From Dyella sp. EPa41 (lineage in GTDB: Bacteria > Pseudomonadota > Gammaproteobacteria > Xanthomonadales > Rhodanobacteraceae): a stretch of 64,000 nucleotides of DNA. The notes beneath the pieces are model-generated. The model was not told the DNA's origin. It worked only from the letters and a program-made list of their open reading frames with translations, and did no database searches. Shown here in pieces: positions 6,925 through 59,165 of this stretch. How positions within the stretch are numbered: the stretch's first letter is position 1; every line of letters begins with the position of its first letter. The position numbers and the translations under genes were made by a program. The DNA lies in contig NZ_BCPR01000021.1 in assembly GCF_016586165.1 (NCBI RefSeq), positions 1 through 64,000 of the forward strand. Direction: 5' to 3'.

Positions 6925-6931
6925 GCAAACG

Positions 6932-7462: not shown

Positions 7463-7668
7463 TCATCACTCCCTTGGCATGATTTCACGCACCCTTCACT
7501 GCATGGCACAAGCCTGCTGCGTAAACTTGCCGCTGTCCACTTGAGTCGTCCAGTGTAGGCGCGTGCCCATTGTGATGCTGCCCTGACTTGAGTCAGAAGA
7601 TGCAGGGGGCGATGCGCTTAGCTTGAGTGCCGGGAGTAACGCGGAAGCTTCCTGCTTGAGGGGTGTGC
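7463..7668 (+). promoter_or_regulatory. nap promoter region with repeated ACTTGAGTC motif
   Basis: This 206-base divergent gap serves the nap operon and the molybdopterin-type gene. ACTTGAGTC occurs at 7539-7547 and 7586-7594. Further CTTGAG copies lie near 7620 and 7654. The second copy is part of the inverted repeat CTGACT-TG-AGTCAG (7583-7596). The pattern suggests a regulator site, but it does not match the full FNR/ANR consensus, and no regulator is named here. Confidence 0.35.
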
Positions 7669-7830
7669 ATGGAAACGTCACCGAAGGCGGCCTCAAAACG
7701 TCAGGAGAGGAATACGTTCCTCCTGCTTGCCGTTGTCCTCTTCCCCGTAGTGGCCGTGACATTCGTCGCCGGCTACGGATTCGTCGTCTGGTTCTGGCAA
7801 ATGTTCGTCAGCGGCCCGCCCGGCCACTGA
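7669..7830 (+). CDS. napE: Periplasmic nitrate reductase small membrane protein NapE
   Basis: 53-residue single-span membrane protein, shorter than most gene-finder cutoffs. It starts [17 protein letters not shown], followed by a hydrophobic helix ([20 protein letters not shown]) and ends [15 protein letters not shown]. The charged N-terminus and the aromatic motif FVVWFWQM are typical of NapE. Its function within nap operons is not established. GAGGGG lies a few bases upstream as a ribosome site. It is the first gene of napEDABC, and napD follows after 45 bases. Confidence 0.85.
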
Positions 7831-7875
7831 GGCGTGCACGCGCCGTTGGCCAACGCATCCGGCAAAGGGGACATC

Positions 7876-8172
7876 ATGAAGGGCGAACAACACATATCCA
7901 GCCTCGTCGTACTTCACCGGCCCGACAGCGCCTCGATCGTGCGCGGGTTTACCACCACCCACGAGTCGCTGCAGATCGCCGCCGAACGCGACTGCCGCTG
8001 CGTCCTGCTGTGCGAGACGGACAACCAGCGGGCCATCGTCGATCACATCGACGCCCTGTCCCTGCTTCCCGGCGTGATCAACGTCTCACTGGTCTATCAC
8101 CATGTCGAGTCCGCCGACGAGCTCGACCAACCCGCCATGACCATGGCATTGCACCAGGAAACCGACGCATGA
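7876..8172 (+). CDS. napD: NapA maturation chaperone NapD
   Basis: 98-residue ferredoxin-fold cytoplasmic chaperone that binds the Tat signal peptide of NapA and holds back export until the molybdenum cofactor is loaded. The start [10 protein letters not shown] and the middle [22 protein letters not shown] fit the family. The ATG at 7876 was chosen over one at 7834 because the shorter form begins at the usual N-terminus ([12 protein letters not shown]) and has AAAGGGG just upstream. Its stop overlaps the napA start (ATGA). Confidence 0.9.
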
Positions 8173-10670
8173 CAGCCCAGATGACGCGACGCGAGTTTGT
8201 CCGCAACACGGCCGTCGCCATTGCCGCCAACGTCGCCGGCATTGCGCTTCCCGCCAGCGCCACCAACGTACTGCTGGAGGGCGACCTCACGCAGCTCAAA
8301 TGGAGCAAGGCGCCCTGCCGTTTCTGCGGCACGGGCTGCGGCGTGAATGTCGCCGTCAAGAACGGGCGCGTGGTGGCGACGCACGGCGACGTGCACGCGG
8401 AGGTCAATCGCGGCCTCAACTGCATCAAGGGCTATTTCCTCTCCAAGATCATGTACGGCACCGATCGGCTGACGCAGCCGCTGCTGCGCAAGAAGGACGG
8501 TGCCTATGCCAAGGATGGCGACTTCACGCCGGTGTCCTGGGACGAGGCATTCGATGTCATGGCCGCGCAGTTCAAGCGCGTGCTCAAGGAAAAGGGTCCC
8601 GGCTCGGTCGGCATGTTCGGGTCCGGCCAGTGGACCGTCTGGGAAGGCTATGCCGCCAACAAGCTCTACAAGGCGGGCTTCCGCAGCAACAACCTCGACC
8701 CCAACGCGCGCCACTGCATGGCGTCCGCGGTGATGGGCTTCATGCGCACGTTCGGCATGGATGAGCCGATGGGTTGCTACGACGACATCGAGGCCACGGA
8801 TGCGTTCGTGCTGTGGGGCTCGAACATGGCCGAGATGCATCCCATCCTGTGGACGCGCGTCACCGATCGGCGCCTGTCGAACCCACAGGTGAAGGTGGCG
8901 GTGCTGTCGACATTCGAGCATCGCAGCTTCGAGCTGGCCGACATCCCGATCGTCTTCAAGCCGCAGACCGACCTGGTGATCCTCAACTACATCGCCAACC
9001 ACATCATCAAGAGCGGCAAGGTCAACAAGGATTTCGTCAACCAGCACACCACCTTCAAGCGCGGCGTCACCGATATCGGCTACGGCCTTCGCCCCGACGA
9101 TCCGCTGGAGGTGAATGCCAAGAACGCGAAGGACCCGACGGCCAGCGATCCCATCGACTTCGAACAGTTCGCCGCGTTCGTCGCGCCGTACACGCTGGAA
9201 AAAGCCGTCGAGATGACGGGCGTCGAAAAGGGTTGGCTGCAGCAGCTCGCCGAACTCTATGCCGACCCGAAAACCAAGGTCGTTTCCTTCTGGACCATGG
9301 GCTTCAACCAGCACACGCGCGGCGTGTGGGCCAACAACATGGTCTACAACCTGCATCTGCTGACAGGCAAGATCTCCACGCCGGGCAACAGCCCGTTCTC
9401 GCTGACGGGACAGCCCTCCGCCTGCGGCACCGCGCGCGAAGTGGGCACGTTCAGCCATCGCCTTCCCGCTGACATGCTCGTGGCCAATCCCGAGCATCGC
9501 AAGCATGCGGAGGAAATCTGGAACATCCCGCACGGCATCATCCAGCCAAAGCCCGGGTTCCACGCGGTGGAACAGAACCGCAAGCTGCGCGACGGCGTGC
9601 TAAACGCCTACTGGGTGCAGGTCAACAACAACATGCAGGCCGGTGCGAACCTGATGCAGGAGACGTATCCGGGCTACCGCGATCCGCGCAACTTCGTCGT
9701 CGTTTCCGATGCCTACCCCACCGTCACGGCCCAGGCCGCGGACCTCATCCTGCCGGCGGCCATGTGGGTGGAGAAGGAAGGCGCCTATGGCAACGCCGAA
9801 CGGCGTACGCAGTTCTGGCATCAGCTGGTGAAGGCCCCCGGTGATGCGAAGTCGGACCTGTGGCAGCTGATGGAATTCTCCAAGCGCTTCACCACCGATG
9901 AATGCTGGCCGGCGGACATCCTCGCGGCCAATCCGCAATACAAGGGCAAGACCTTGTTCGAGGTCTTGTTCAAGAACGGCAAGGTGGACAAGTTCCCCAC
10001 CTCGCAGATCGAAGCGGGTTATGACAACGACGAATCGGCGGCGTTCGGCTTCTACGTGCAGAAAGGCCTGTTCGAGGAGTACGCCGAGTTCGGTCGCGGC
10101 CATGGCCACGACTTGGCGCCCTTCGACGCCTACCACCAGGCACGCGGCCTGCGCTGGCCGGTGGTGGATGGCCATGAAACGCGGTGGCGTTATCGCGAAG
10201 GCACAGACCCTTACGTCAAGGCCGGCACCGGCTTCCAGTTCTATGGCAACAAGGATGGCCGCGCGGTGATCTGGGCCTTGCCTTACGAACCGCCCGCGGA
10301 AAGCCCCGACAAGGAATTCGACCTGTGGCTGGTGACCGGCCGCGTGCTCGAGCACTGGCACTCCGGCTCGATGACGATGCGCGTGCCCGAGCTCTACCGT
10401 GCGTTTCCGCAGGCCGTGGTGTTCATGAATCCCGATGATGCGAAGGCGCGCGGATTCAAGCGCGGCGATGAGGTCCGCGTGGTGTCACGCCGCGGCGACA
10501 TGCGATCACGCATCGAAACGCGCGGGCGCAACCGCATGCCGCCCGGCGTGGTATTCGTGCCGTGGTTCGATGCGGGCCAGCTGATCAACAAGGTCACGCT
10601 GGACGCCACCGATCCCATCTCCAAGCAGACCGACTACAAGAAGTGCGCGGTCAAGGTCGTGGCCGTCTAA
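8169..10670 (+). CDS. napA: Periplasmic nitrate reductase catalytic subunit NapA
   Basis: 833 residues, close to the usual 830. It reduces nitrate to nitrite in the periplasm at a Mo-bis-MGD centre. The N-terminus is a Tat signal ([19 protein letters not shown]), and the [4Fe-4S] motif CRFCGTGCG follows at about residues 53-61, with its distal cysteine in GLNCIKGYF. The Mo-ligand cysteine is expected in [13 protein letters not shown]. The start overlaps napD, and the frame continues cleanly to the stop. NapB and NapC, its electron donors, follow directly. Confidence 0.96.
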
Positions 10671-43034: not shown

Positions 43035-44132
43035 TTACTGCTGGACCTGCAGCTCCGTACGACGGTTCTGGGCGCGGCCAGCGTCCGTGTCGTTGCTGCC
43101 AATCGGATCGTTCTTGCCGTGACCGACCGGGCCTTCCAGACGGCTGGCGGCGATGCCGTGAGCGGTCAGGTAGTCGAACACGATCTGGGCGCGACGCTCG
43201 GACAGATCCTGGTTGTAGGCGTCCTTACCGACCGAGTCGGTGTAGCCGGCAACGTTGACCTTGACCTGCGGGTAGCGCTGCAGGGTGTCCACAGCCTGGT
43301 CGAGGATGGCGATCGAGTCGGTGGTCGGCTCAGCCAGCGCCTTCTTGATGTCCTTCTCGCCCTTCTTCGGACGATCGAACTTGAAGTTGACGCCGCGCAG
43401 GTCGATCACGACCTTCTGCGGGCAGCCGTCCGGACCAACGATGGTGCCAGCCGCGGTGTTCGGGCACTTGTCGTCGCAATCGTTGACGCCGTCACCGTCG
43501 CTGTCGAGCTTCGAGCAGTCCGGAGCGGCCGGCGGCGGGGTGGCAGCCACCGGGGCAGCAGCCGGCTCGCCGAAGCGCGACACGATGCTGAAGCCCAGGA
43601 ACCAGTCGCCGTAACCGTTCTTCGCCGGCTGGGTCTTGTCGTCCCAGTCGTAGCGATAGCCGGCTTCGATGCGGATGTCGGTGCTGTCGGTGACGGTCTT
43701 GGACACACCAGCGCCGAGCTCGGCAGCCGGCGACCAACCATTGTCGACGGCATTCTGGTGGTAGCTGCCCATCACGCCGGCCAGCAGGTACGGACGCCAT
43801 GCGTTCCAGTCGCCGTAGTAGAAGCGGGCGGCCACGCCGAAGTTGTTGTTCGCCCAACGGCCGCCGGCATCGGCGTCACGCTTGGTGCGATCCACGAACA
43901 GGTCGATCGAGGTGTTCGGGGCAATGAAGCGACCGAAGCCCAGGCCGTAATAGACCTGACGGCTGTTGGTGTTGCGATCGGTGTCGTTGTAGTAGCCGCC
44001 CACGGTCGGAGCGATGTACCAACGGCCGTCGTAGCTCGGCGTGGTCGCACCGGCAGTGTTGTCTTGCGCGTGAACGGCACCTACGCCGCCCAGGGCCAGG
44101 GCAATCAGGAAATACAAGCCCTTACGATTCAT
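43035..44132 (-). CDS. OmpA family outer-membrane protein, paralogue 1
   Basis: 365 residues. A signal peptide (LIALALGGVGAVHA) precedes an eight-stranded type barrel (about 30-195, starting GRWYIAPTVGGYYND). A proline-rich hinge and thrombospondin type 3 calcium motif follow (DSDGDGVNDCDDKCPN), then a C-terminal OmpA peptidoglycan-binding domain with GYTDSVGKDAYNQDLSERRA. It links the outer membrane to the cell wall. It lies 371 bases downstream of a close paralogue on the same strand. Confidence 0.95.
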   Translation of the reverse strand: MNRKGLYFLIALALGGVGAVHAQDNTAGATTPSYDGRWYIAPTVGGYYNDTDRNTNSRQVYYGLGFGRFIAPNTSIDLFVDRTKRDADAGGRWANNNFGVAARFYYGDWNAWRPYLLAGVMGSYHQNAVDNGWSPAAELGAGVSKTVTDSTDIRIEAGYRYDWDDKTQPAKNGYGDWFLGFSIVSRFGEPAAAPVAATPPPAAPDCSKLDSDGDGVNDCDDKCPNTAAGTIVGPDGCPQKVVIDLRGVNFKFDRPKKGEKDIKKALAEPTTDSIAILDQAVDTLQRYPQVKVNVAGYTDSVGKDAYNQDLSERRAQIVFDYLTAHGIAASRLEGPVGHGKNDPIGSNDTDAGRAQNRRTELQVQQ

Positions 44133-44503: not shown

Positions 44504-45634
44504 TTACTGCTGAACCTGCAACTCCGTGCGGCGATTGCGCGCACGACCGGCATCCGTGTCGTTGGTATCGATCGGGTCGTTCTTGCCATGACCGACCGGG
44601 CCTTCGAGACGGCTTGCATCGACGCCATGGGCGAGCAGGTAGTCGTACACGATCTTCGCACGACGCTCCGACAGACCCTGGTTGTACTGGTCCGTACCCA
44701 CGCTGTCGGTGTAACCGGCCACCATGACCTTGACCTGCGGATAACGCTGCAGGGTGTCGACGGCCTGGTCGAGGACCGCGATCGAATCCTTGCTCGGTTC
44801 GGCCAGCGACTTGCTGATGTCCTTCTCGCCCTTCTTCGGGCGATCGAACTTGAAGTTGACGCCGCGCAGGTCGATCACGACCTTCTGCGGGCAACCATCC
44901 GGACCGACGATCGTGCCGGCCGGCGTGTTCGGGCACTTGTCGTCGCAATCGTTGACGCCATCGCCGTCGCTGTCGAGCTTCGAGCAATCCGGCGGCGGCG
45001 GCGGCGGTGCCACGACCGGCGCGGCAGCGGGTTCGCCGAAGCGGGACACGATGCTGAAGCCCAGGAACCAGTCGCCATAACCGCTCTTGTTCGACTGGGT
45101 CTTGTCGTCCCAGTCATAGCGATAACCCGCTTCGATGCGGATATCCGAACTGTCGGTAACGGTCTTGGACACGCCGAGGCCGGCTTCAACGGCGGGATCC
45201 CAACCGTTGTCGTTGCTGTTCTGGTGGTAGCTGCCGATCACGCCGCCCAACAGGTACGGACGCCAGGCGGTCCATTCGCCGAAGTAGTAACGCGCGGCGA
45301 CGCCCCAGTTGTTGTTCGCCCACTTGCCGCCACTGGTGGTGAGGCCATTGACGTAGGTGTCGCGATCACGCTTGGTGCGATCGAAGAAGAAATCCAACGA
45401 GAAGTTCGGCGAGAAGAACCGGCCGACACCCAGGCCATAGTAGAACTGGCGGCTGTTGGTATTGCGGTCGGTGTCGTTGTAGTACCCGCCAACGGTCGGG
45501 GCGATGTACCAACGGCCGTCATAGCTTGGCGTTGTGGTCGGAGCCGGAGCGGAAGAAGTGTTGTCCTGCGCGTGAACGGCGCCTGCGCCGCCCAGGGCGA
45601 GGGCAATGAGCATGTACAAGCCCTTACGTTTCAT
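44504..45634 (-). CDS. OmpA family outer-membrane protein, paralogue 2
   Basis: 376 residues, the same architecture as paralogue 1: signal peptide (LIALALGGAGAVHA), barrel, proline hinge, thrombospondin type 3 motif and OmpA domain (GYTDSVGTDQYNQGLSERRA). The C-terminal halves are nearly identical between the two. Differences concentrate in barrel loops, where paralogue 2 has an extra segment around RDTYVNGLTTSGGKWA. Gene, leader and terminator seem to have been duplicated as a unit. Confidence 0.95.
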   Translation of the reverse strand: MKRKGLYMLIALALGGAGAVHAQDNTSSAPAPTTTPSYDGRWYIAPTVGGYYNDTDRNTNSRQFYYGLGVGRFFSPNFSLDFFFDRTKRDRDTYVNGLTTSGGKWANNNWGVAARYYFGEWTAWRPYLLGGVIGSYHQNSNDNGWDPAVEAGLGVSKTVTDSSDIRIEAGYRYDWDDKTQSNKSGYGDWFLGFSIVSRFGEPAAAPVVAPPPPPPDCSKLDSDGDGVNDCDDKCPNTPAGTIVGPDGCPQKVVIDLRGVNFKFDRPKKGEKDISKSLAEPSKDSIAVLDQAVDTLQRYPQVKVMVAGYTDSVGTDQYNQGLSERRAKIVYDYLLAHGVDASRLEGPVGHGKNDPIDTNDTDAGRARNRRTELQVQQ

Positions 45635-45841: not shown

Positions 45842-47293
45842 TTACAGCGTGAAGAGACCCAGGAAATCCTGGATCGGCATGGCATCCAGCCTGGCTGAGT
45901 CCGTGGTGGCCTCCAGGATGGCCTTGACCCGGTGGGCTGGCAAGTGGCCCCGGATCGCCTCCTCGAACTTCTCCAACAGCAGCGGAATGCCCTCCCCACG
46001 CCGCTTGCGGTGGCCGATCGGGTAGTCGATGGACACCTTGTCCGTGCGGGTCCCGTCCGTGAAGAAAACCTGCACCGAGTTGCCTATATAGCGCTTTCCG
46101 GGGTCGAAATAGTCCCTGGTAAATTGCGGGTCCTCACTGACCACCGTCCTGGCGCGCAAGGCATCGATGCGCGGATCGGCCGCCACGTCGTCGTTGTAGT
46201 CCTCGGCGGTGAGGCGCCCGAAGATCAGCGGCACCGCCACCATGTACTGGATGCAATGGTCGCGGTCGGCGTAATTGGCCAGCGGGCCGGTCTTGTCGAT
46301 GATGCGGGTGGCCGCCTCCTGCGTTTCGATCACCACCCGCTCGACCTGGTCCAGCCTGCCCGCGACGGCGCCGTGAAGCTTCATGGCGCACTCGACGGCG
46401 GTCTGGGCGTGGAATTCGGCCGGGAAGCTGATCTTGAACAGCACGTTCTCCATCACGTAGCTGCCGAACGGGCGCTCGAACTGGAATGCATTGCCCTTGA
46501 AGGCCACGTCGTAATAGCCCCAGGTCCTGGCCGTCAATGCCGAGGGATAACCCACCACGCCCCGGTACACGGCGTTGATGGCGTGCGTGACGGCGCGGCG
46601 GCAGGCATCGCCCGCCGCCCAGCTCTTGCGCGGACCGGTATTGGGGGCATGGCGGTAGGTGCGCAGCGAGCCGTTGTCGATCCAGCTGTGGGAGAGGGCG
46701 GTGACGATCTCTTCCTTGCCGCCGCCCAGCATGGCCGTGGCGACGGCCGTGGAGGCCAGGCGCACCAGGATCACGTGGTCCTGCCCGATGCGATTGAAGC
46801 TGTTCCTGAGGGCGTAGCAGCCCTGGATCTCATGGGCCTTGATGGCGTAGGTGAGCACATCGCGCACCGTCATCGGCGTGCCGCCCTCGCGCGCGGCCTT
46901 GCGGCCCAGGTAGTCGGCCACCGCCAGGATGGCGCCGAGGTTGTCCGAGGGATGGCCCCACTCGGCGGCCAGCCAGGTGTCGTTGAAATCCAGCCAGCGG
47001 ATCTGCGTGCCGATGGCGAACGCGGCCTGCACGGGATCCAGCTCGTGGCTGGTGCCCGGCACGCGCGCGCCGCCTGGCAAGGTGGCGCCCGGCACCACCG
47101 GCCCCAGGTGCTTGACGCACTCGGGGAACCGCATCGCCAGCATCGACGTGCCCAGCGAGTCGAGCAGCATATGGCGCGCGGTGTCGTAAGCCTCCGCGGA
47201 GTCGATCGTGTAGTCGAGCACATAGTCGGCGACGTCGACCATCGGCTGGTCGGGGTCGGGGCGCTTGGCGGAACGAAGATCAGGCTCGCTCAT
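45842..47293 (-). CDS. prpD: 2-methylcitrate dehydratase
   Basis: 483 residues of the MmgE/PrpD family, matching the usual PrpD length. It dehydrates 2-methylcitrate to 2-methyl-cis-aconitate in propionate breakdown. Recognisable segments are MLLDSLGTSMLAMRFPEC, RWLDFNDTWLAAEWGHPSDN and the C-terminal GYPIGHRKRRGEG-like region. It lies alone, about 6.5 kb from prpC and prpB; no acnD or prpF is in the window. Confidence 0.93.
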   Translation of the reverse strand: MSEPDLRSAKRPDPDQPMVDVADYVLDYTIDSAEAYDTARHMLLDSLGTSMLAMRFPECVKHLGPVVPGATLPGGARVPGTSHELDPVQAAFAIGTQIRWLDFNDTWLAAEWGHPSDNLGAILAVADYLGRKAAREGGTPMTVRDVLTYAIKAHEIQGCYALRNSFNRIGQDHVILVRLASTAVATAMLGGGKEEIVTALSHSWIDNGSLRTYRHAPNTGPRKSWAAGDACRRAVTHAINAVYRGVVGYPSALTARTWGYYDVAFKGNAFQFERPFGSYVMENVLFKISFPAEFHAQTAVECAMKLHGAVAGRLDQVERVVIETQEAATRIIDKTGPLANYADRDHCIQYMVAVPLIFGRLTAEDYNDDVAADPRIDALRARTVVSEDPQFTRDYFDPGKRYIGNSVQVFFTDGTRTDKVSIDYPIGHRKRRGEGIPLLLEKFEEAIRGHLPAHRVKAILEATTDSARLDAMPIQDFLGLFTL

Positions 47294-48960: not shown

Positions 48961-50427
48961 CTAGTACATCATCGGCACGCGCACGGTCACCGTCGCGTCG
49001 GGTGTGTCGCGGGTGACGCCCACACCGACCGTGAAGTTGAGCGTGCGCTTGTCGTTGAAGCGCCATGAGCCGCCGATCAGGAGCGTGCCGAGCACGATCT
49101 TGGTCGACCCCGGCACGCGCTGCCCGTTCTGCTTGGTGGGCCCGACGAAGGCCTGCTCGTAGCCGATGCTCATCGACGCCTTCTCGTTGAGCGAAAGGCC
49201 CATGCCAAGGCTGAGGTCGACGATGTCACCGGGCTTGACCTTGCCGAGCTGCTCGGTGCCACCCAGCAGGATGTGCCGCGTGACGTTGTCGCGCGGCACG
49301 TTGTAGAGATAGCTGACATTGCCGAACAGCACGATCGGGTCGGTGGGATACAGCCAGGTGACGCCAGGCTGCAGCGACCAGAAGCCGGTGCCCGAGGGTT
49401 GATGCAGCGGCAGCCCGGTGCCGGTCACCGACAACGGAACCTCCGACAGCACGTTCTCGACGCAGCGCTGGATGCAATCGGTGGTGACCTCGAACGGGTC
49501 CTTGCCCGTGTTGGATTTCACGCGGAACCAGCCGACGTAGAACGCCTTGTCAGGGCCGCCGATATTGAGCTGGTAGCGGATGGTCGCTTCGATATCGCCC
49601 AGGCCGTTGCCGCTCGAGCCGAAGGCATTGTCGGTCGCGGTGCCGGTGAAGATCTCGCGGCTGACGGTGTCCTGGTGCGTCCACACATAAGGCACGCGCA
49701 GCTCCACTTCCATGCGGTCGGTGATGCCATAGCGCCCGGTGAGCCAGCCTATCTGCGTGGTGGTCTTCACCTGCCGCGCATCGATCAGGCCGATCAGGAT
49801 CGCCGGAATCACCGTATAGCCCACCAGTGCCACGCGGTCGACCGACGAATAGCCGAACTGGTAGGCCGGCTCGATGACGAACCTGCCCTTGGGCGTGAGC
49901 ACGCCAGGCTGCTGGAAGATGGGCGCCACTTCCGGCGGGCGCGTATCGGGCTTCGGCGCTTCGCCCACGGGTTGCTGCTGCGGTGCCGGCGCGACGGCCG
50001 CCACCGAATCGGCGGCAGGCATGGGCAAGGCCGAGGCGCCCGCCCCTCCCGCGGCGATGTTGCCAGCGCGCTGCTTGTCCAGCACGTCGATGCCTACCGC
50101 GTGGCGCAATGACTGGTAGTCGGCCTCCTGCTCCGCCAGCGCGCGCTTCATCGCATCAAGCTGGGCCATCTGCGCACTGATCTGGCTGCGCATCGCCTCG
50201 ATGCGCTCGCCCTGCTCCGCGACCTTCTTGCGGATCTCATTCGAATCGGTGGATGCCGACGCCGCGGAAGGGGCGGACGGAATGGGATTGGACGCCACGG
50301 GCGGCGGCACGCCGGCCACCTCGCCCGCCGGTGCTCCAGCCTGCTGGGCCGCGACCGGCAGGCCCAGCATCACCAGGCCCGCGCATCCTGCCGACCATAC
50401 ATATCGCCACGTTGAGTGTCGCATCAT
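48961..50427 (-). CDS. FapF-like outer-membrane amyloid secretion channel
   Basis: 488 residues. The order is a signal peptide (about 1-27), a proline/alanine-rich stretch, a coiled coil (about 62-112, NEIRKKVAEQGERIEAMRSQ), a second Ala/Pro linker, then a transmembrane beta-barrel (about 180-488) ending in strand residues TVRVPMMY. This layout matches FapF, the channel that exports Fap amyloid subunits in Pseudomonas. It is the last gene of a five-gene operon whose order parallels fap. Two adjacent ATG codons (50427 and 50424) follow an AGGAAG site. An ordinary outer-membrane porin of the MetA-pathway type is a weaker alternative. Confidence 0.7.
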   Translation of the reverse strand: MMRHSTWRYVWSAGCAGLVMLGLPVAAQQAGAPAGEVAGVPPPVASNPIPSAPSAASASTDSNEIRKKVAEQGERIEAMRSQISAQMAQLDAMKRALAEQEADYQSLRHAVGIDVLDKQRAGNIAAGGAGASALPMPAADSVAAVAPAPQQQPVGEAPKPDTRPPEVAPIFQQPGVLTPKGRFVIEPAYQFGYSSVDRVALVGYTVIPAILIGLIDARQVKTTTQIGWLTGRYGITDRMEVELRVPYVWTHQDTVSREIFTGTATDNAFGSSGNGLGDIEATIRYQLNIGGPDKAFYVGWFRVKSNTGKDPFEVTTDCIQRCVENVLSEVPLSVTGTGLPLHQPSGTGFWSLQPGVTWLYPTDPIVLFGNVSYLYNVPRDNVTRHILLGGTEQLGKVKPGDIVDLSLGMGLSLNEKASMSIGYEQAFVGPTKQNGQRVPGSTKIVLGTLLIGGSWRFNDKRTLNFTVGVGVTRDTPDATVTVRVPMMY

Positions 50428-50531
50428 GCTTCCTCATGAGCCGGGTTCAGGATCCTGCTGGCGAAGACGCCGCGACGATCGACGGCGACGGCTTCACGTG
50501 TGGATACGACGGTGGCGTGGCGCATCTCATG

Positions 50532-51122
50532 TCAGTGCCCGATGGCCTGCAGCTGCGCCTGTTGCAACGCATCCTGGAAATTCGCCTGGCGGAATGCGTT
50601 GAGCGTGTTGACCGATGTGTTGATCGTGGTGATGCTCTGGATGTGCTGGCCGTTAAGCGTGTTCTGGATGACCGTTGCGCCCGCGTTCTGCCCGATCGAT
50701 GAAGGGTCGAACGTGTTGTTCGGTCCCACCTGGGTCACCGTGACGGTGTTGAGCGCGGTCTGCATGGCGGTCGCCTGCGCCGGCGTCATGTGCCCGATGT
50801 CCGGCACGTTGAAGCTCGTCGAGGTAACGAGGTTGCCGTTGACGTAGACCGCGCGATCGATGCCGAACGACGCCATCAGTCCATTGCCCAGGTCATAGCC
50901 GCCACGCGCTTCGTCCAGCGTTTCCGGGCTCACCGGCGTCCAGTCGGCCAGATCACCGGACGTGGGAATGCCGCTCACGACATGGGCAAGTGCGGCGGGT
51001 CCGGCCGCGACGGGGGCGGGCATGGGCGCCGTGCCGTCCTGGGCCTGCGCGCCCACCACCCACGGGCCGCAAGCGAGGAGCAGCGTGCCAAGTCCAACGA
51101 TGCGTGCGACGGATTTCATCAT
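50532..51122 (-). CDS. FapE-like secreted protein of the amyloid operon
   Basis: 196 residues with a signal peptide (LGTLLLACGPWVVGAQA). The C-terminal half is rich in Asn, Gln, Thr and Val and contains SIGQNAGATVIQNTLNGQ, an amyloid-like motif shared with the two small proteins upstream. The helix-like tail ends FQDALQQAQLQAIGH. Its position between the C39 protease and the channel is the position of fapE. The start at 51122 has an AGGGAG site, 6 bases after the protease stop. The family assignment is by context and composition. Confidence 0.55.
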   Translation of the reverse strand: MMKSVARIVGLGTLLLACGPWVVGAQAQDGTAPMPAPVAAGPAALAHVVSGIPTSGDLADWTPVSPETLDEARGGYDLGNGLMASFGIDRAVYVNGNLVTSTSFNVPDIGHMTPAQATAMQTALNTVTVTQVGPNNTFDPSSIGQNAGATVIQNTLNGQHIQSITTINTSVNTLNAFRQANFQDALQQAQLQAIGH

Positions 51123-51128
51123 CGCTCC

Positions 51129-51812
51129 CTAGAGATCGTCCGGCCCTTTCTTGGGCATCACTAAGTTGTAGAGGCCATTGCGGTCGATGACATTGCTGAC
51201 GGGCGCGCCCGGCGCGACCTTCCAATCATTCGCACTGTTGAACACCGCCAGGTTGCGACGGTTGTGGATGACGAAGACCAGGCCGTTCTTCCACATCGAC
51301 ATGAACTTCGTCTCGGACAGCACGCGCGTGCCACGCGCCGGATCCCCAACCAGCACGCGCCCGCTGCGCATGCCCTTGACCACCACGAAATGGTGGTAGC
51401 CCTTTTCGTCGATCAGCACGATGGCCGGCAGGTTCTCCTGGGCAAGCTTGTCGAGCGGCACCCTGTAGCCGTCCGCCTGGAAACCGTTCGCTTCGAGAAA
51501 GCGCTTGATGTCCAGCAGCGAGAAACCTTCGCGGTTGATCTTGGCCTGGTCGCCATGCGTGTACATCTGCTCGAACGCGACCTGCTCGTCGACGGGATAG
51601 CCGTACTGGTAGGTCAGCAATGTCGCCACCGCGGCCGAGCCGCAGCTGAAGTCGTACTTCTGGTGGATCGTGGCCTTGTAGCGTGCTTCCTTCACGCTGG
51701 TCAGGTGCACGGTGTAAAGGCCCGCGCCACCCGACACGGCGACCGGCGTGGTGGCGTGTCCTTCCAGCGGCAGCGCCGCGATCAGGATCCACAGCGCCGC
51801 CCGCTTGTTCAT
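51129..51812 (-). CDS. FapD-like C39-type cysteine peptidase
   Basis: 227 residues with a signal peptide (LWILIAALPLEGHA). Peptidase C39 residues are visible: Gln51 and Cys57 in HQKYDFSCGSA, His140 or His141 in GYHHFVVVKG, and Asp157 in VLVGDPARG. Unlike ABC-exporter C39 domains it stands alone, as FapD does. FapD-type proteases act in the periplasm on amyloid export. Its ATG overlaps the stop of the preceding small gene by 4 bases. Confidence 0.82.
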   Translation of the reverse strand: MNKRAALWILIAALPLEGHATTPVAVSGGAGLYTVHLTSVKEARYKATIHQKYDFSCGSAAVATLLTYQYGYPVDEQVAFEQMYTHGDQAKINREGFSLLDIKRFLEANGFQADGYRVPLDKLAQENLPAIVLIDEKGYHHFVVVKGMRSGRVLVGDPARGTRVLSETKFMSMWKNGLVFVIHNRRNLAVFNSANDWKVAPGAPVSNVIDRNGLYNLVMPKKGPDDL

Positions 51813-52228
51813 GGCTGGAACTGGACGTTGAGGACGGTGGCGTTCTGGATCAGCACGCTGTTGCCAGAATTCTGGATCACCGTCGGAAAGCCGGTGGCGC
51901 CGCTCAGGGAGTTGCCCGTGATGATGTTGTCGCCCGTCACCACGTGATCGACATTGTTGTCGGACATCGTGCCGGTGAGATTGGTGTCCTGCCAGATCAA
52001 CGTGCCGCCGCTGAGATCGGCAAGGGTGGCGTTGTCCACGCTCGCCCCCAGGTCGTCCACCACGCTCCGGTGGTCTACGCGGGTCGCGGCGACATAGACG
52101 GCTATCGGCGATTCGGAGCCATCGGAGAGGTACGCAGGAGGAATCTGCGCGTCTTTCGCGCAAAGCACTGCAGGTGCCGCCAAGGCACAACATGCAGTGA
52201 CAGCAAGCATCCACTTGAAGGATCGCAC
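51809..52228 (-). CDS. Small secreted protein with amyloid-like C-terminus (FapA/B-position)
   Basis: 139 residues from a GTG start at 52228, preceded by GGGAG. The signal peptide is LAVTACCALAAPAVLCA. The mature protein ends FPTVIQNSGNSVLIQNATVL and NVQFQP, closely resembling the end of the glycine-rich protein encoded just upstream. It overlaps the protease gene by 4 bases. It may be a minor subunit, nucleator or chaperone of the fibre; no firm orthology can be claimed. Confidence 0.6.
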   Translation of the reverse strand: MRSFKWMLAVTACCALAAPAVLCAKDAQIPPAYLSDGSESPIAVYVAATRVDHRSVVDDLGASVDNATLADLSGGTLIWQDTNLTGTMSDNNVDHVVTGDNIITGNSLSGATGFPTVIQNSGNSVLIQNATVLNVQFQP

Positions 52229-52314
52229 GGCACAATCTCCCAGGGCGCGCGGGCACCCATTCGATCGAAGCTCGCATCAATCAGTCGTCCCTGGAGACGG
52301 CCGCCTTGCAGCAC

Positions 52315-52348
52315 CACGCACGGTGGGACAGGCGCCCCACCGTGCGTG
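52315..52348 (-). terminator. Strong hairpin between the amyloid gene and the rest of the operon
   Basis: A perfect 13-bp stem (CACGCACGGTGGG / CCCACCGTGCGTG) with an 8-base loop starts 12 bases after the amyloid stop. There is no T-run, so it may act as a partial terminator or mRNA-stabilising end that makes the first gene the most abundant product. Confidence 0.6.
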
Positions 52349-52360
52349 GACTCCTCACAC

Positions 52361-53344
52361 TTAGTGACTGAAGTTCAGGTTGGCCTGAACGTTCACGCTC
52401 TGCTGTACCAGCGAAGCTGCACCGCTGTTCTGGGCAAGAATCGACACGCCTGCCGCTGCGGAAGCCGAGCCATTCATCTGGTTCGACATGTCGAACGCGC
52501 CCGTGGTGGCATAAGCCGTGCCGCCTGCGCCAGCCGCGCCGCCTGCGCCGCCCGCACCACCCATGCCCGCACCGCCGGTTCCGCCGGTGCCCGCGCCGCC
52601 TGCGCCGCCGGCACCTGCCGTGCTCGACGAGCTACCGCTGCTGCCGCCGGTCGCCGAGGCGCTGCCGCTGGTTCCAGTGCCTGCACCTGCCGTGGCGGAA
52701 CCGCCGGCCCACGAGCCGTTACCGCCGGTCGAGGTGTTGGTGTTGGTGCCCGCGCCGCGTGCGCGCGAATGAGCGCTGGCGTAGTTGTCGCCATCACTGC
52801 TTCCACCACCGGCCAGCGACGCACCGCCGGCATCACCGCTGGACGCGCCGCTGCCGCCCGCGCGACCGCTTGCGGAGAGGGCATCACCACCGGATCCGCC
52901 ACGGCCGCCGTTGCCGCCAACGGCCTTGCCGCCGTCACCGCTGCCACCGCGTCCGCCGCTTCCGCCACGACCGCCATTGGCGTTGCCGTTGTTGGTGGCG
53001 TAGTTGCCGATGTTGCTTACGCTCACGTCACTGACGGTGCCGCTCAGATCGCTGCTGGCAACGGCCGTGCTGCTGTTGAACGCATCGGAGAACGACGCTG
53101 TAGCGGTTCCGCCATTGTTGGCGGCCGCAGTACCCGCACCGGCAGAAGCTGCGTCGCCCGAGTTGAACGCATCCGTGAAGGTCTTGGTGTGCGTGCTCGA
53201 GTTGGTATTGGAGTGAGTGCTTGAGTTCGTACTGGTACTGGTGATTGCGCCTGAATTGCCTGAGTTGTCCGTGTTATCCGCGAAGGCGGGAAGTGCCAAT
53301 CCCAATCCCAGCACGATCGCGGTCGCAATTAGAGTCTTACGCAT
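52361..53344 (-). CDS. Glycine-rich candidate functional amyloid (FapC/FapB-like position)
   Basis: 327 residues. After a signal peptide (IATAIVLGLGLALPAFA) come a Ser/Thr/Asn-rich region, two related units (KTFTDAFNSGD at about 54 and ASFSDAFNSST at about 83), and a long Gly/Ala/Ser tract (about 122-277). The last 45 residues include VSILAQNSGAASLVQQSVNV, the amyloid-like motif shared with the next gene. There is no cysteine, unlike the CxxC I recall for Pseudomonas FapB/FapC. The ATG at 53344 is 8 bases from AGGAG; an ATG at 53350 is too close. It leads the operon, below a sigma-54 promoter. Confidence 0.65.
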   Translation of the reverse strand: MRKTLIATAIVLGLGLALPAFADNTDNSGNSGAITSTSTNSSTHSNTNSSTHTKTFTDAFNSGDAASAGAGTAAANNGGTATASFSDAFNSSTAVASSDLSGTVSDVSVSNIGNYATNNGNANGGRGGSGGRGGSGDGGKAVGGNGGRGGSGGDALSASGRAGGSGASSGDAGGASLAGGGSSDGDNYASAHSRARGAGTNTNTSTGGNGSWAGGSATAGAGTGTSGSASATGGSSGSSSSTAGAGGAGGAGTGGTGGAGMGGAGGAGGAAGAGGTAYATTGAFDMSNQMNGSASAAAGVSILAQNSGAASLVQQSVNVQANLNFSH

Positions 53345-53794: not shown

Positions 53795-54940
53795 TCAGCG
53801 CTTTTCGATCGGCACGTAGGCCTGGTCCTCGGGACCGGTGTAGTTGGCGCTGGGACGGATGATCTTTCCGTCGATGCGCTGCTCGATCACGTGCGCGCTC
53901 CAGCCGGAGGTGCGGGCGATGACGAACAGTGGGGTGAACATGGCGGTCGGCACGCCCATCATGTGATACGCGCTTGCCGAGAACCAATCCAGGTTCGGGA
54001 ACATCTTCTTCTGTTCCCACATCAGCTTCTCGATCTTCTCCGACACGTCGAACAAGGTCGGGTTGCCACCCTCGGTGCACAGCTTGCGCGAGACTTCCTT
54101 GATGATCTCGTTGCGCGGATCGGACACGGTATACACCGGGTGGCCGAAGCCGATGATGATTTCCTTGCGCTCGACGCGGGCGCGGATATCCGCTTCCGCC
54201 TCGGCCGCGTTGCGGTAGCGCGCGATGATCTCCATCGCCACTTCGTTGGCGCCGCCATGCTTGGGACCGCGCAGCGCGCCGATGGCGCCGGTGATGGCCG
54301 AGTACATGTCCGAACCGGTGCCGGCGATGACGCGGGCGGTGAAGGTCGACGCGTTGAACTCATGCTCGGCGTACAGCACCAGCGACTTGTCCAGCGAGTG
54401 CGCGTGCAGTTCGCTCGGCTTCCTGCCGTGCAGCAGGTGCAGGAAATGGCCGGCGATCGAATCGTCGTCGGTTTCCGTCTCGATGCGCTTGCCGTTGTGG
54501 CTGAAGTGGAACCAGTACAGCAGGATCGAACCGAAGCTGGCCATCAGGCGGTCGGCAATGTCGCGCGCGCCGGTGATGTTGTGGTCGTCCTTCTCCGGCA
54601 GCACGGTGCCCAGCACCGAGCAGCCCGTGCGCATCACGTCCATCGGATGCGTGGCGGCGGGCAGCAGTTCCAGCGCGCTCTTCACCGGCGCGGGCAGGCC
54701 GCGCAGGCGCTTGAGCTTGGCGCGGTAGGCATTGAGCTCCGCCCAGTTCGGCAGCACGCCGTGCACCAGCAGGTAGGCCACCTCCTCGAAGCAGCCCTTG
54801 GCCGCCAGATCGTGGATGTCGTAGCCGCGGTAATGCAGATCGTTGCCGCTGCGTCCCACCGTGCACAGCGCGGTGTTGCCCGCGGCCACGCCCGACAGCG
54901 CGACGGATTTCTTGGGCTTGGGAAGGGTTTGCTCGCTCAT
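53795..54940 (-). CDS. prpC: 2-methylcitrate synthase
   Basis: 381 residues of the citrate synthase family. It condenses propionyl-CoA with oxaloacetate. Catalytic residues are in [28 protein letters not shown] and [14 protein letters not shown]. The short length and the N-terminus lacking the extra domain of GltA point to PrpC. GAGGAG precedes the ATG at 54940; an upstream ATG at 54979 lacks such a site. It is second in the prpBC operon, 72 bases after prpB. Confidence 0.95.
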
Positions 54941-55012
54941 CGGATACGTCTCCTCAATGCATACGATCTTGCCGGCCACCGCGTCATCGTGGCCCGGCGA
55001 ATGGGGTGGCCG

Positions 55013-55903
55013 TCAGGCCTTCTTCTGGTTCGCGAACAGGCTGTCGAGCTTGTCCTCGTAGGCGTGGTAGCCGAGGAAGTCGTACAGGTCCGCGCGCGTC
55101 TGCAACGTGTCGATGATGTTCTTCTGCGTGCCTTCGCGGCGCACCGTCTCGTAGAAGTTGAGCGCGGCCTTGTTCATGGCGCGATAGGCGCCGCAGCAAT
55201 ACAGCGCGATGTCCACGTTGGCGTTACGCAGTTCGTCGGTGGTGAAGAACGGCGTGGAGCCGAACTCGGTAAGATTGGCCAGGATCGGCACCTTCACCGC
55301 GTCGCGGAAGCGACGATAGTCGTCCAGCGTCTTCATCGCTTCGGGGAAGATCATGTCGGCGCCCGCCTCGACATAGGCGCAGGCGCGATCGATCGCCGCG
55401 TCGATGCCTTCCATGGCGGCCGCGTCGGTACGCGCCATGATCACGAAACCGGCATCGGTGCGGGCGTCCACGGCGGCTTTCACGCGGTCGACCATCTCTT
55501 CCTTGGACACCACTTCCTTGCCCGGGCGATGGCCGCAACGCTTCTGGCCGACCTGGTCCTCGATATGCACGGCCGCCACGCCCACGTTGATGAACGAGCG
55601 GATGGTGCGACCGATGTTGAACGCCCCGCCCCAGCCGGTATCGATGTCGACCAGCAGTGGCATCTGCGTGGCATCCACGATGCGGCGGGCGTCGGTGAGC
55701 ACGTCTTCCATGGTGGAGATGCCCAGGTCCGGCATGCCCAGCGAATTGGCGGCGACGCCGCCGCCGGAGAGGTATAGCGCCTTGTAGCCCACGCGCTTGG
55801 CCATCAGGCCGGCATAGGCGGTGATCGCGCCCATGACCTGGAGGGGACTTTCGGCGGCAACGGCGGCGCGGAAGCGCGCGCCGGCAGATTCGGGATGGGA
55901 CAT
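55013..55903 (-). CDS. prpB: 2-methylisocitrate lyase
   Basis: 296 residues. It splits 2-methylisocitrate into pyruvate and succinate. The catalytic loop reads [11 protein letters not shown], where E. coli has KKCGHR; metal-binding acids are in [12 protein letters not shown]. The ATG at 55903 follows GGAGAA. A -10 like box (TAGAAT, 55930-55925 on the minus strand) lies just upstream, without a good -35, which suggests activator dependence. Confidence 0.96.
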
Positions 55904-56007
55904 GGTGGTTCTCCGAAACCTCATATTCTAGGCGATGCGATGGCTGCACCGCGCCGCGCCGCAGCAGGCGCCGGGGCGCGGCAGACACTCTGTCATCGGG
56001 CGATGTA

Positions 56008-56034
56008 TTGATCAATCTTGATCCAAAGGATCAA
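56008..56034. promoter_or_regulatory. Operator-like TTGATC repeats between prpB and its regulator
   Basis: TTGATCAA (56008-56015) is followed by TTGATCC-AAA-GGATCAA (56018-56034). These sites end 9 bases before the regulator ATG and lie about 80 bases upstream of the prpB -10, so one protein could repress its own gene and control prpBC. Confidence 0.55.
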
Positions 56035-56043
56035 TATGTCGGC

Positions 56044-57258
56044 ATGCGAGCCGATTATCTTTCCGCCCAGGAAGCCGCCACGCGCCTCGGCGTGAGCTCC
56101 GCCACGCTCTACGCCTACGTGAGCCGCGGCAAGATCGATTCGCGACCCGGCGCCGACGGACGCAGCCGCGAGTATCTGGCTGACGATATCGAGCGGTTGA
56201 TCGAACGCCGCCAGGCGGGCCGCGGTGCTGCAAAGGCAGCCGCGCGCAGCCTCACCTGGGGCCTGCCGGTGCTGGAGACGCGCATCTCGCTGATACGGCC
56301 GCACGGCCACTATTACCGCGGCGAATCGGCCATTGCGCTGGCGACGCGGGGCGCGACCCTGGAAGACGTGGCGCGGTTGCTGTGGGGCGGTGACGGCGAT
56401 CCGTTCGCCGCCATGCCGCCCCGCAACTGGCCAGGAGCCGTGGCCCTGCTCATGCGCCGCGACGATGTGCCGCCACAGGAACGCACGGCAGCCGCGCTGC
56501 CGCTGATCGCACTGACCTCGCCCTACACCCACAGCCTGGACCCGCAGCAGCGGCGCGAGTGCGCGGCACGCCTGCTCCGGGAGACGGCCGCCCTGCTGTG
56601 CGGGACGCGTCCCAGTCATCACCCGATCCATCGCGTGATGGCGGAGAACTGGCGTGCCGGCGACGAGGGTCTCGCCGAGATCGTGCGCAGCACCCTGGTG
56701 TTGTGCGCGGACCACGAACTCAACGCGTCCGCCTTTGCCACGCGCGTGGCCGCCTCCACCGGCGCCAGCCTGCACTCGTCGGTGAGCGCGGGATTGGCGG
56801 CGCTGTCCGGGCCGCAACATGGTGGTGCCGCCGCCCGCGCCTACGCGCTGATCCAGGAAGCGCAGCGCGATCGGCGTCCCGCCGACCACGTGCGCGAGCG
56901 CCTGCGTCGCGGCGACGAACTGCCCGCCTTCGGGCATCCGCTTTATCCCGATGGCGATCCGCGCGCCGCCTTGCTGTTGCGCATGCTCGACGACACGCGT
57001 CCGCGCCTGGGCGGGCTGGTGCGCATCCGGCAGCTGGTCGATGCCGTGCACGACAGCGTCGGACGCCAGCCCAGCCTCGATTTCGCGCTGGCCGCCATCG
57101 CTACGCTGTACGGGCTCGGCCCGCATGCCGCGCTGTCGCTGTTCGCGGCAGGACGCATGGCCGGCTGGCTTGCGCATGCGCTGGAGCAGCAGGACCACGG
57201 CGGACTGATCCGCCCCCGCGCCAACTACGCCGGCACCCTGCCCGGCCGGCGTGACTGA
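56044..57258 (+). CDS. HTH-citrate synthase fusion, probable propionate regulator
   Basis: 404 residues. The first 60 form a MerR-like helix-turn-helix (YLSAQEAATRLGVSSATLYA), and the rest is a citrate synthase fold. The catalytic-type residues are kept: CADHELNASAFATRV, LSGPQHGGAAARA, AFGHPLYPDGDPRA and a late SLDFALA aspartate. It is divergent from prpBC, so it probably senses a methylcitrate-cycle intermediate through the synthase-like domain. Whether it also has enzyme activity is unknown. The ATG at 56044 was preferred to a TTG at 56008, which falls in the operator repeats. Confidence 0.8.
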   Translation: MRADYLSAQEAATRLGVSSATLYAYVSRGKIDSRPGADGRSREYLADDIERLIERRQAGRGAAKAAARSLTWGLPVLETRISLIRPHGHYYRGESAIALATRGATLEDVARLLWGGDGDPFAAMPPRNWPGAVALLMRRDDVPPQERTAAALPLIALTSPYTHSLDPQQRRECAARLLRETAALLCGTRPSHHPIHRVMAENWRAGDEGLAEIVRSTLVLCADHELNASAFATRVAASTGASLHSSVSAGLAALSGPQHGGAAARAYALIQEAQRDRRPADHVRERLRRGDELPAFGHPLYPDGDPRAALLLRMLDDTRPRLGGLVRIRQLVDAVHDSVGRQPSLDFALAAIATLYGLGPHAALSLFAAGRMAGWLAHALEQQDHGGLIRPRANYAGTLPGRRD

Positions 57259-57275
57259 GGCCCAAGCGCGCAGCG

Positions 57276-59165
57276 TCAGGCGTCGGAGCCACGCTCCAGC
57301 GCGCGCCGCACTTCTTCCAGCGCATGGGGGTCATCCAGCGTCGACAGGTCGCCCGGATCGGTGTGCTGCACCAGAGCCTGCAGCGACCGGCGCAGCAGCT
57401 TGCCCGAACGCGTCTTGGGCAGGGCGTTGACCACATACACGCGCGCCGGCTTGGCCACGCCGCCCAGCTGGGACACCACGCGCTGCTGCATGGCGCGGGC
57501 GACGTCGGCCGACGGTTCGGAAACGCCCTGCTTGAGCGTGGCGAACACCACGGGCACCTGCCCTTTCAGTTCGTCCTGCACGCCCACCACGGCCGCTTCC
57601 GCGCACGCCGGATGCGTGGATACCGATTCCTCGATCTCGCGCGTGCCCAGGCGATGACCGGCCACGTTGATCACGTCGTCGGTGCGGCCGAGGATGGTGG
57701 TATAGCCGTGCTCGTCGCGTATCGCCCAGTCCAGCGAGCTGTAGAGCAGCTCGTTGAAATGGCTGAAATAGCTGTTGACGTAACGCTCGTCGTCGCCCCA
57801 CACGGTGGTGAGGCAGCCCGGCGGCAGCGGCGGCACGAACACCAGCACGCCCTTCTGGTGCGGTGGCAATTCTTCGCCGGTGCCTTCGTCGATCACCTTC
57901 ATGCGATAACCGGGGCTCGGCAATCCCGGCGAGCCGAATTTCACCGGCTTGAGGTCGAGCCCCGGCATCAGCGTGATGGCCGGCCAGCCGGTTTCGGTCT
58001 GCCAGTAGTTGTCGATCACCGGTACGCCGAGGCCTTCGGTGATCCAGTGCGCGGTCGGCTCATCCAGCGGTTCGCCGGCAAGGAACAGCCACTTCAGCTT
58101 GGACAGGTCGTATTTCTTCAGCCAGCTGGCGTCTTGCTTCTTCAGCACGCGGATGCCGGTGGGCGAGGAGAACATGGTGCGCACGCCGTAGCGCTCGCAC
58201 AGCTGCCACCAGATGCCCGGGTCGGGATGCGTGGGAAGCCCTTCGTAAAGCAGCGAGGTGGCGCCGCCGATCAGCGGACCGTATACGTTGTACGAGTGAC
58301 CCACGGCCCAGCCCACGTCCGACGTGGAGAACATCACCTGTCCCGGCGCGATGTCGAACACCGTGCGGATCGACAAGGCCATCGCGACCGCATAGCCGCC
58401 CACGTCACGCTGGATGCCCTTGGGCTTGCCGGTGGTGCCGGACGTATACAGCAGGTAGCTGGGCTCGTTCGATTCCAGCCAGGCGACCGGCACTTCGGCA
58501 CCTTCGTACGACGCGCGCAAGCTGGCGTAGTCGAGATCGCGACCGGCCACGCGCGTCATCTGCGGATCGAGGCCGCGGTCGACGATCAGCACGCGCGGCG
58601 GCTTGTTGCTTGCCTCTTCCAGCGCCGCGTCCACCAGCGGCTTGTAGGGAATCACCTTGCCGCCGCGCATGCCGGCATCGGCGGCGATCAGCAACTTGGG
58701 CTGCGCGTCATCGATGCGCAACGCCAGGTTGTGCGACGCGAACCCGCCGAACACCACCGAGTGGATCGCACCGATGCGCGCGCAGGCCAGCATCGCGAAC
58801 ACCGCCTCGGCGATGTTGGGCATGTAGATCACCACGCGATCACCCTTGCCCACGTCCAGCGAAGCGAGCACGGCGGCAAAGGTGTTCACTTCACGATGGA
58901 GATCGCGGTAGGTGAGCTCGCGCGTGATGTTGGTTTCGGTGGAAATCGCCACCAGCGCCAGCTGGCCACCGCGTTCTTCCAGGTGGCGGTCGATCGCGTT
59001 GTAGCAGAGATTGGTGGTGCCGCCGACGAACCAGCGGCGGAACGGCAGTCGCGAGGTATCGAGGATCTGCTCGGGCGGCGTGTGCCAGTGGATGCGCTTG
59101 GCCTGTTCGGCCCAGAAGGCTTCGGGTTCGTCCACCGAACGCTGGTAGAAATCCTCGTAGCGCAT
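57276..59165 (-). CDS. prpE: Propionyl-CoA synthetase
   Basis: 629 residues of the acyl-CoA synthetase (AMP-forming) family, most like PrpE. It activates propionate for the methylcitrate cycle. The nucleotide loop YTSGTTGKPKGIQRD, the Y-W-Q-T-E-T-G-W motif and the C-terminal catalytic lysine in PKTRSGKLLRRS are present. The start MRYEDFYQRSVDEPEAFWAEQA is typical. It converges with the HTH-citrate synthase gene and completes the propionate set with prpB, C and D. Confidence 0.92.
   Translation of the reverse strand: MRYEDFYQRSVDEPEAFWAEQAKRIHWHTPPEQILDTSRLPFRRWFVGGTTNLCYNAIDRHLEERGGQLALVAISTETNITRELTYRDLHREVNTFAAVLASLDVGKGDRVVIYMPNIAEAVFAMLACARIGAIHSVVFGGFASHNLALRIDDAQPKLLIAADAGMRGGKVIPYKPLVDAALEEASNKPPRVLIVDRGLDPQMTRVAGRDLDYASLRASYEGAEVPVAWLESNEPSYLLYTSGTTGKPKGIQRDVGGYAVAMALSIRTVFDIAPGQVMFSTSDVGWAVGHSYNVYGPLIGGATSLLYEGLPTHPDPGIWWQLCERYGVRTMFSSPTGIRVLKKQDASWLKKYDLSKLKWLFLAGEPLDEPTAHWITEGLGVPVIDNYWQTETGWPAITLMPGLDLKPVKFGSPGLPSPGYRMKVIDEGTGEELPPHQKGVLVFVPPLPPGCLTTVWGDDERYVNSYFSHFNELLYSSLDWAIRDEHGYTTILGRTDDVINVAGHRLGTREIEESVSTHPACAEAAVVGVQDELKGQVPVVFATLKQGVSEPSADVARAMQQRVVSQLGGVAKPARVYVVNALPKTRSGKLLRRSLQALVQHTDPGDLSTLDDPHALEEVRRALERGSDA

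Follow-up and report, generated by a model that had tools for sequence, protein, structure and literature searches.

The Fap system (fapABCDEF), found in Pseudomonas and other bacteria, exports amyloid fibers with a periplasmic C39-type protease, FapD, and a trimer-type outer-membrane channel, FapF, that combines a coiled coil with a barrel. As described for Pseudomonas, FapD needs its active-site Cys for secretion, its target is given as unclear, the Fap proteins lack canonical C39 sequences, FapE has GG and GA motifs, and no peptides were detected from the first ~70 residues of FapE (PMC5557850); a 2025 review still calls FapE processing by FapD "thought" (PMC12822426). A 2018 review records neighboring homologues of fapD and fapF from five additional phyla, with no description of such operons at that point (PMC6173800). 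Related gene pairs are known from two other settings: the Neisseria nap island, described as a C39 protease (NapP) and a FapF homologue (NapF) with small peptides bearing a double-glycine (GG) motif and a proposed periplasmic cut (PMC11798529), and the Fil "putative pilus" of NCBIfam, likewise a C39 protease (FilB) with a FapF-related channel (FilC). Here we analyze a five-gene minus-strand operon in a 64,000-nucleotide stretch of Dyella sp. EPa41 (contig NZ_BCPR01000021.1, positions 1 to 64,000; hereafter, the window). Judged from its sequence, the operon represents a separate, well-supported branch of Fap-related loci, in which two proteins carry GG leaders as candidate substrates of the protease. 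The operon gives a soil bacterium its own relative of the Pseudomonas amyloid-fiber export system, with a GG signal that makes the protease target testable.

A sequence-only reading of the window had listed, in order, a glycine-rich secreted protein, a small secreted protein with the same terminal motif, a stand-alone C39 peptidase, a FapE-like secreted protein and a coiled-coil plus barrel channel, and had noted two tightly coupled gene pairs. All five frames are present in that order (Table 1) and both couplings were verified, genes 2 and 3 overlapping by 4 bases (51809-51812) and genes 3 and 4 lying 6 bases apart (51123-51128); the list had overlooked the GG leaders of genes 2 and 4 and the hairpin between genes 1 and 2. 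Gene 1 has a possible alternative start (MTMRK) two codons further upstream, and gene 2 starts with GTG. The five-gene order is conserved in all 16 named loci, 15 of them from Dyella, so the block is not a chance arrangement; across these loci the lowest identities are 51% for gene 1, 34% for gene 2, 59% for the C39 protein, 51% for gene 4 and 61% for the channel, the nearest named record being Dyella jiangningensis (95% channel identity). Scanning genes 1-5 with Pfam and NCBIfam gave no informative match beyond FapD/FilB and FapF/FilC, and upstream of gene 1, up to the next operon at 53795, no second repeat-bearing gene was found.

Table 1. Features of the operon, in window coordinates.
Feature	Position	Strand	Description or basis
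Gene 1, putative major subunit	52361-53344	minus	Sec-type signal peptide; Gly/Ser/Asn-rich middle; 327 residues
Gene 1, C-terminal single Fap-like repeat (about residues 288-324)	52373-52483	minus	hhalign against tandem repeats
Hairpin	52314-52349	minus	16-bp stem not followed by a T-run; lies between genes 1 and 2, behind the gene-1 stop codon
Gene 2, putative minor subunit	51809-52228	minus	signal peptide, prosegment, double-glycine leader
Gene 2, double-glycine leader (residues 60-75), LGASVDNATLADLSGG	52004-52051	minus	V64, L69, S73, G74, G75 invariant in 17 rows
Gene 2, Fap-like repeat (residues 101-135)	51824-51928	minus	profile-profile against tandem and FapB/C repeats
Gene 3, stand-alone C39 peptidase, FapD homologue	51129-51812	minus	signal peptide
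Gene 4, protein in FapE position	50532-51122	minus	signal peptide, prosegment, double-glycine leader, 121-residue mature part
Gene 4, double-glycine leader (residues 60-75), DWTPVSPETLDEARGG	50898-50945	minus	V64, L69, R73, G74, G75 invariant in 17 rows
Gene 5, FapF-type outer-membrane channel	48961-50427	minus	signal peptide, then coiled coil (about 62-111), linker and a barrel at the C-terminus

The proposed homology of protease and channel to FapD and FapF was borne out by several independent comparisons, and the outcome that the sequence-only reading had named as counting against it, the two proteins falling clearly outside these families, did not occur. The protease matches NCBIfam FapD (NF058616) at 144.4 bits (3.1e-42) and the channel matches FapF (NF058560) at 137.5 bits (5.3e-40), with FilB (128.7 bits) and FilC (36 bits) as second-best matches. 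Both scores miss the curated cut-offs of 330 and 700 bits, which is not telling, because none of 369 genomes of the class reaches that of FapF, and canonical Fap from the same order (Xanthomonadales), at 253-261 bits, also misses that of FapD. When profiles from 22 loci were compared with those from six canonical loci, the C39 proteins aligned at 99.95% and the channels at 99.92%. Against PDB, the channel profile matched FapF alone (5o67, 5o65 and 5o68; four distinct sequences; best 3.5e-27) and the best match of the protease was LahT150 (6mpz, 5.6e-9), a double-glycine protease; Gln51, Cys57, His141 and Asp157 are kept in all 22 rows. By these comparisons the two proteins are homologues of FapD and FapF. 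An AlphaFold2 model of the channel, with a coiled coil and then many strands in FapF-like order, was of low confidence and was not used as evidence. Within its own genome the window channel is the sole one with a full-length FapF match, one further place matching its coiled-coil part weakly (22 bits), and three more C39 domains occur in frames of 714-764 residues, which we take to be, probably, ATP-binding cassette (ABC) exporters.

To place the operon among its relatives, further loci were gathered by FapF and FapD searches of 369 genomes of the class and 398 of the phylum, and their genes were sorted with five protein models. When 64 proteases were placed on a carefully searched maximum-likelihood tree, 45 loci of the window type split off at 100/99 and 12 canonical Fap loci grouped weakly (83/45); in a quick tree of 67 channels, 48 window-type loci were supported at 99 and the 12 canonical loci at 97. 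The window-type label was assigned before the tree to any locus neither canonical nor Fil-like, and so takes in L130, L139 and L143, where neither gene 2 nor gene 4 was picked up by the models; L126, with a C39 gene only, was left out of both trees. On this evidence the window system is a separate, well-supported branch rather than a diverged form of the canonical system; of its earlier description as a divergent Fap system, the homology stands and the notion of a diverged copy gives way to a branch of its own on the protease tree. Genome G001 carries both channel kinds on one contig, ~88 kb apart, and the two are therefore distinct systems and not allelic versions. The Fil-like loci lie outside the window-type branch, and the five protein models detected no relatives of gene 2 or gene 4 there; the window proteins score higher for FapD and FapF than for FilB and FilC. 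The label "Fil-like" was assigned by gene content to seven rows that are themselves not one branch, and their identity with Fil is suggested by the gene pair. These C39 and FapF-like channel pairs, a third kind, were observed in L121, L134, L135, L136, L137, L138 and L152. On both trees a contig titled Candidatus Eremiobacteraeota (L040) is nested in the Dyella group and is probably a mis-binned Dyella-like contig.

What distinguishes the operon most clearly is a second N-terminal signal in the products of genes 2 and 4. In both, a signature V-x4-L-x3-[S/R]-GG stands behind the Sec-type signal peptide and equally far from the start, the invariant positions being -12, -7, -3, -2 and -1 from the last Gly, in N-terminal halves that are otherwise variable. 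The two proteins are mutually related (profile-profile 96.8% with signal peptides, 95.5% without). Both show the features of C39 double-glycine substrates, namely hydrophobic residues at -12, -7 and -4 and GG at -2/-1, with Leu at -4 in gene 2 of the window and Ala at -4 in gene 4. Crystal and mutational work on LahT150 describes leader residues -4, -7 and -12 as occupying a hydrophobic groove, with changes at -7 and -12 impairing cutting and -4 accepting Thr, not Lys or Asp (PMC6363468), and the hydrophobic positions of the present leaders are those bound in that groove.

The leader is kept beyond the order. Of 42 gene-4 relatives, 40 have RGG[FY], and L130 and L151, which the gene-4 model missed, likewise carry it. 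A separate site count for gene 4, gene 2 and canonical FapE used a pattern that needed L or M at -7, so that -12 and -4 alone were free. In that count the gene-4 rows without a site are a pattern miss (L146, which has MAALRGG) and a 60-residue fragment (L132), and the site counted for L141 lies in a wrong frame; in gene 2, for which the pattern accepted several dipeptides, GG is kept in 30 of the 42 relatives with a site (L132 is the row without one). In 17 representatives, hand-picked by lineage out of 42 and anchored on RGG[FY] alone, the fraction with V/I/L/M/F is 0.88 at -12, 1.00 at -7 and 0.71 at -4, compared with only 0-0.06 at -11 to -8, -6 and -5; as a background, a hydrophobic pair at -12/-7 precedes 35 of 1539 Gly in the proteases and channels. 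The best reading of these patterns is that the C39 protease would mature the gene-2 and gene-4 proteins at the GG. The ABC-exporter double-glycine C39 proteases (LahT150 and others) share the fold family, the catalytic residues and the leader positions -12, -7, -4 and GG; unlike them, the window protease is stand-alone, with a signal peptide, and its putative substrates have a Sec-type signal peptide before the leader, so that cutting would be periplasmic and uncoupled from an ABC exporter.

The leader might instead serve as a docking or sorting tag, with the C39 protein acting as a chaperone that hands leader-bearing proteins to the channel. Certain C39-like domains are described as merely binding their substrates (PMC5557850), and the hydrophobic positions stay even though canonical FapE (14 with a site) has GR or GK instead of GG and some gene-2 proteins have other pairs. 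Set against this are the catalytic residues, intact throughout the 22 rows, the retention of GG in nearly all gene-4 relatives, and the catalytic Cys required of FapD for secretion in Pseudomonas, and we regard such a role as quite unlikely compared with cleavage at the GG.

Canonical FapE bears the same leader as gene 4, with GR or GK in place of GG. Among 17 FapE rows, 14 have a leader site, with V/I/L/M/F at -12 in all 14 and at -4 in 12; the leaders end in RGR (11), RGK (1) or, in L157, TGK. Of the other three rows, one has no site and two, L020 and L023, show MRGRY at full length. Compared without signal peptides, gene 4 and FapE align at 83.7% in a 40-row set (31 columns) and at 54.5% in a narrower set, and this alignment consists of the leader and about 15 residues only; a first score of 89.5%, inflated by the signal peptides, was discarded. 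We infer that the site of FapD is the leader end of canonical FapE, and that cutting would occur there. The recognition signal in two proteins of the window, its hydrophobic half common to canonical FapE, would then supply a concrete cleavage site for both systems. A broader proposal, for and against which we see the odds as even, is that these loci form a widespread lineage, sister to Fap, that licenses amyloid assembly by cutting two dedicated proteins at GG in the periplasm, canonical FapE being a derived or variant substrate that FapD would cut at RG[RK]. In two further loci, frames in the fapA position contain a leader-like stretch (L048, 9648-10205, MTDEDFATMSSG; L050, 2917-3612, LSDEDFARLDAA), which in this short protein ahead of FapB resembles the FapE leader in pattern.

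The terminal motif that the first two proteins had been said to share was verified, as AQNSGxxSLVQQ in gene 1 and VIQNSGNxVLIQN in gene 2. Two relatives, L140 and L147, have a major subunit made of four imperfect repeats of this C-terminal motif, and through them the window subunits can be connected to those of Fap. The profile of 11 such tandem repeats could be aligned in register to that of 18 FapB/C repeats along 33 columns (93.8%; reversed, 0.36%), and the clade-wide gene-1 C-terminus aligned with the tandem repeats of L140 and L147 in hhalign at 97.1% (reversed, 0.65%). Gene 2 aligned with the tandem repeats at 95.4% (reversed, 1.6%) and with the FapB/C repeats at 83.8% (reversed, 0.14%), and gene 1 compared directly with the FapB/C repeats gave 3.4% (profile-profile). 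These alignments support a chain from the window subunits through the tandem repeats to the FapB/C repeats, with one repeat per window subunit. In terms of sequence the subunits are remodelled rather than unrelated to those of Fap, and the earlier view that the fiber subunits had been replaced is too simple, each keeping one Fap-like repeat. Locus L147 (G320:C1:53000-65000) contains two near-identical four-repeat putative amyloid subunits (1234-2163 and 4655-5644), whose genes flank one protease and gene-4 set.

The composition of gene 1 raises another explanation, that of a surface coat or adhesin that forms no amyloid, in which a glycine-rich disordered or polyglycine-type layer is anchored by the terminal repeats. 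Gene 1 has 26% Gly after the signal peptide and a single repeat, its counterparts elsewhere are D/N/S-rich low-complexity proteins with the same terminal motif, and canonical FapB and FapC are described as having three repeats nearly always (PMC12822426). We nevertheless hold a coat to be very unlikely beside a fiber, in view of the four-repeat relatives, which align with the FapB/C repeat.

The products left after GG cleavage bear on a third possibility, the export of free GG-processed peptides (signalling, bacteriocin-like or autolytic) with no fiber, as in nap. A C39 protease with a FapF homologue and GG peptides is not unprecedented, because nap, as described, serves a non-fiber function (PMC11798529), and the predicted mature gene-2 product, with its one repeat, is small (64 residues, 6.7 kDa). 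Whereas the Nap peptides, by their description, are cationic and bacteriocin-like, the gene-2 and gene-4 products are acidic (net charge -4 and -3) and Q/N-rich (22% each), and the operon's products carry Fap-like repeats; the largest product of the operon, further, has no GG leader, and its counterpart in two relatives consists of four tandem amyloid-type repeats. On balance we think peptide export of this kind unlikely and prefer a fiber-building operon. A unit that resembles the Nap type more than Fap was observed in L126 (G750:C130:3000-15000), where at 3896-6322 a C39 gene lies beside one for a protein that has a signal peptide, a leader-like SEMDEVRGRF and, directly behind this, a glycine-zipper-like stretch; a barrel-like secreted protein is encoded upstream.

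A strong hairpin lies behind the gene-1 stop codon in all 22 loci, and in 19 of them it surpasses all 40 dinucleotide shuffles. Covariation was assessed in the 11 of 22 loci that could be aligned, where 98.7% of cells pair and eight of 14 pairs changed on both sides, compared with a shuffled mean of 3.8. The window hairpin is single-copy in its own genome at up to 2 mismatches. Outside the order a hairpin is present in 14 of 16 loci (z -2.8 or lower; none in L124 and L129), and in canonical Fap one stands behind fapC, the major-subunit gene, in nine of 11 loci (z -2.3 or lower). The control position behind gene 4 gave z < -3 in three of 10 loci, so that the specificity of the hairpin is not absolute. 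An intrinsic terminator or a known RNA was considered and rejected, there being no T-run and no Rfam match, and no promoter-like site was found in the hairpin region.

Taken feature by feature, the operon shares with canonical Fap a homologous periplasmic C39 protease and trimer-type channel, the order of subunit, protease, FapE-position gene and channel, a related subunit repeat, the hydrophobic leader positions of the FapE-position protein and the hairpin behind the major-subunit gene. It differs in the separate branch of its protease and channel on both trees, in having no gene in fapA or fapB position, in subunits with one repeat each where FapB and FapC have three imperfect ones, in RGG[FY] instead of RG[RK][FY] in the FapE position with a mature FapE domain that is unrecognisable, and in gene 2, which encodes an additional GG-leader protein and lies between the subunit and protease genes. 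The gene-1 protein lacks cysteine, and so the CxxC motif that is described for FapC (PMC6173800).

We consider it probable, from these comparisons, that this is a fiber-building Fap-type operon with an added periplasmic GG maturation step. The products of genes 1, 2 and 4 would reach the periplasm through Sec and remain unfolded, and the C39 protease would bind the gene-2 and gene-4 proteins at the hydrophobic positions -12, -7 and -4 of their amphipathic leaders and cut after GG, releasing products of 64 and 121 residues. Both products and the uncut gene-1 protein could then leave through the trimeric FapF-type channel, whose coiled coil would lie in the periplasm. Outside the cell the short C-terminal repeats may build an amyloid-like core by stacking. 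The gene-1 protein would act as the major subunit; the gene-2 product may be a nucleator or a minor subunit, and the gene-4 product a starter or an anchor. How far the major subunit exceeds the machinery may be set by the hairpin behind gene 1.

Several results weigh against this interpretation. With a hidden Markov model (HMM) of the FapB/C repeat (18 repeats, six canonical loci), gene 2 of the window scored 3.4 bits and the best shuffled decoy 6.2, and the best real match, 9.2 bits in gene 2 of L043, was not significant; with a tandem-repeat HMM, gene 1 of the window scored 6.1 bits, no more than the top-scoring shuffle of gene 1, and gene-4 proteins after shuffling scored up to 8.8 bits, about level with the best true FapB/C (8.9). 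AlphaFold2 models from alignments of 17 close relatives were too poor for both gene 2 (mean predicted local distance difference test score 48.4) and the channel (39.5). The mature parts of gene 4 and FapE gave no detectable alignment (0.33% and 1.85%), so that the label "FapE-like" holds for position and leader and fails for the mature protein. Position -4 of the leader is Ala in gene 4 of the window, V/I/L/M/F standing there in 23 of 40 relatives, and in gene 2 the GG is replaced in 12 of the 42 relatives with a site (GR, AK, GM, GQ, AM).

The 48 window-type loci are drawn from 17 families of the class, except for L123, which comes from outside it and was placed on a long branch. In a sample of 151 genomes from the order, a channel match (E-value up to 1e-5) was found in 25, 13 at 53-100% identity (window type) and 12 at 26-34%. 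In the class sample a FapF match of at least 300 bits was found in 16 genomes, with canonical FapE confirmed in four (G001, G013, G023 and G281) and presumed from the score in the other 12, and a match of 110-171 bits in 18 genomes, G001 being counted in both groups; 17 of the 18 were examined (G513 was left out), and 16 fell in the new branch and one, G303, outside it. In this sample the window-type branch is thus roughly as common as canonical Fap. Of the 26 loci of the branch from outside the window's order, 15 have channel and protease on opposite strands (the L143 contig stops short of the protease). No paper among the matches listed in the open-licence literature describes the lineage. 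Fap surveys described as requiring FapB/C repeats near other fap genes (PMC12392863, PMC12822426) would miss it. In L120 (G636:C11:1024000-1037000) genes 1 and 2, the C39 gene and gene 4 are duplicated in tandem (3931-9370), with a single channel on the other strand.

Elsewhere in the window, the frames at 45842-47293 and 53795-59165 flank the operon and are presumably propionate/methylcitrate-cycle genes, as if the system were placed inside a prp cluster. Two closely similar frames in tandem at 43035-44132 and 44504-45634 are presumably of the OmpA type.

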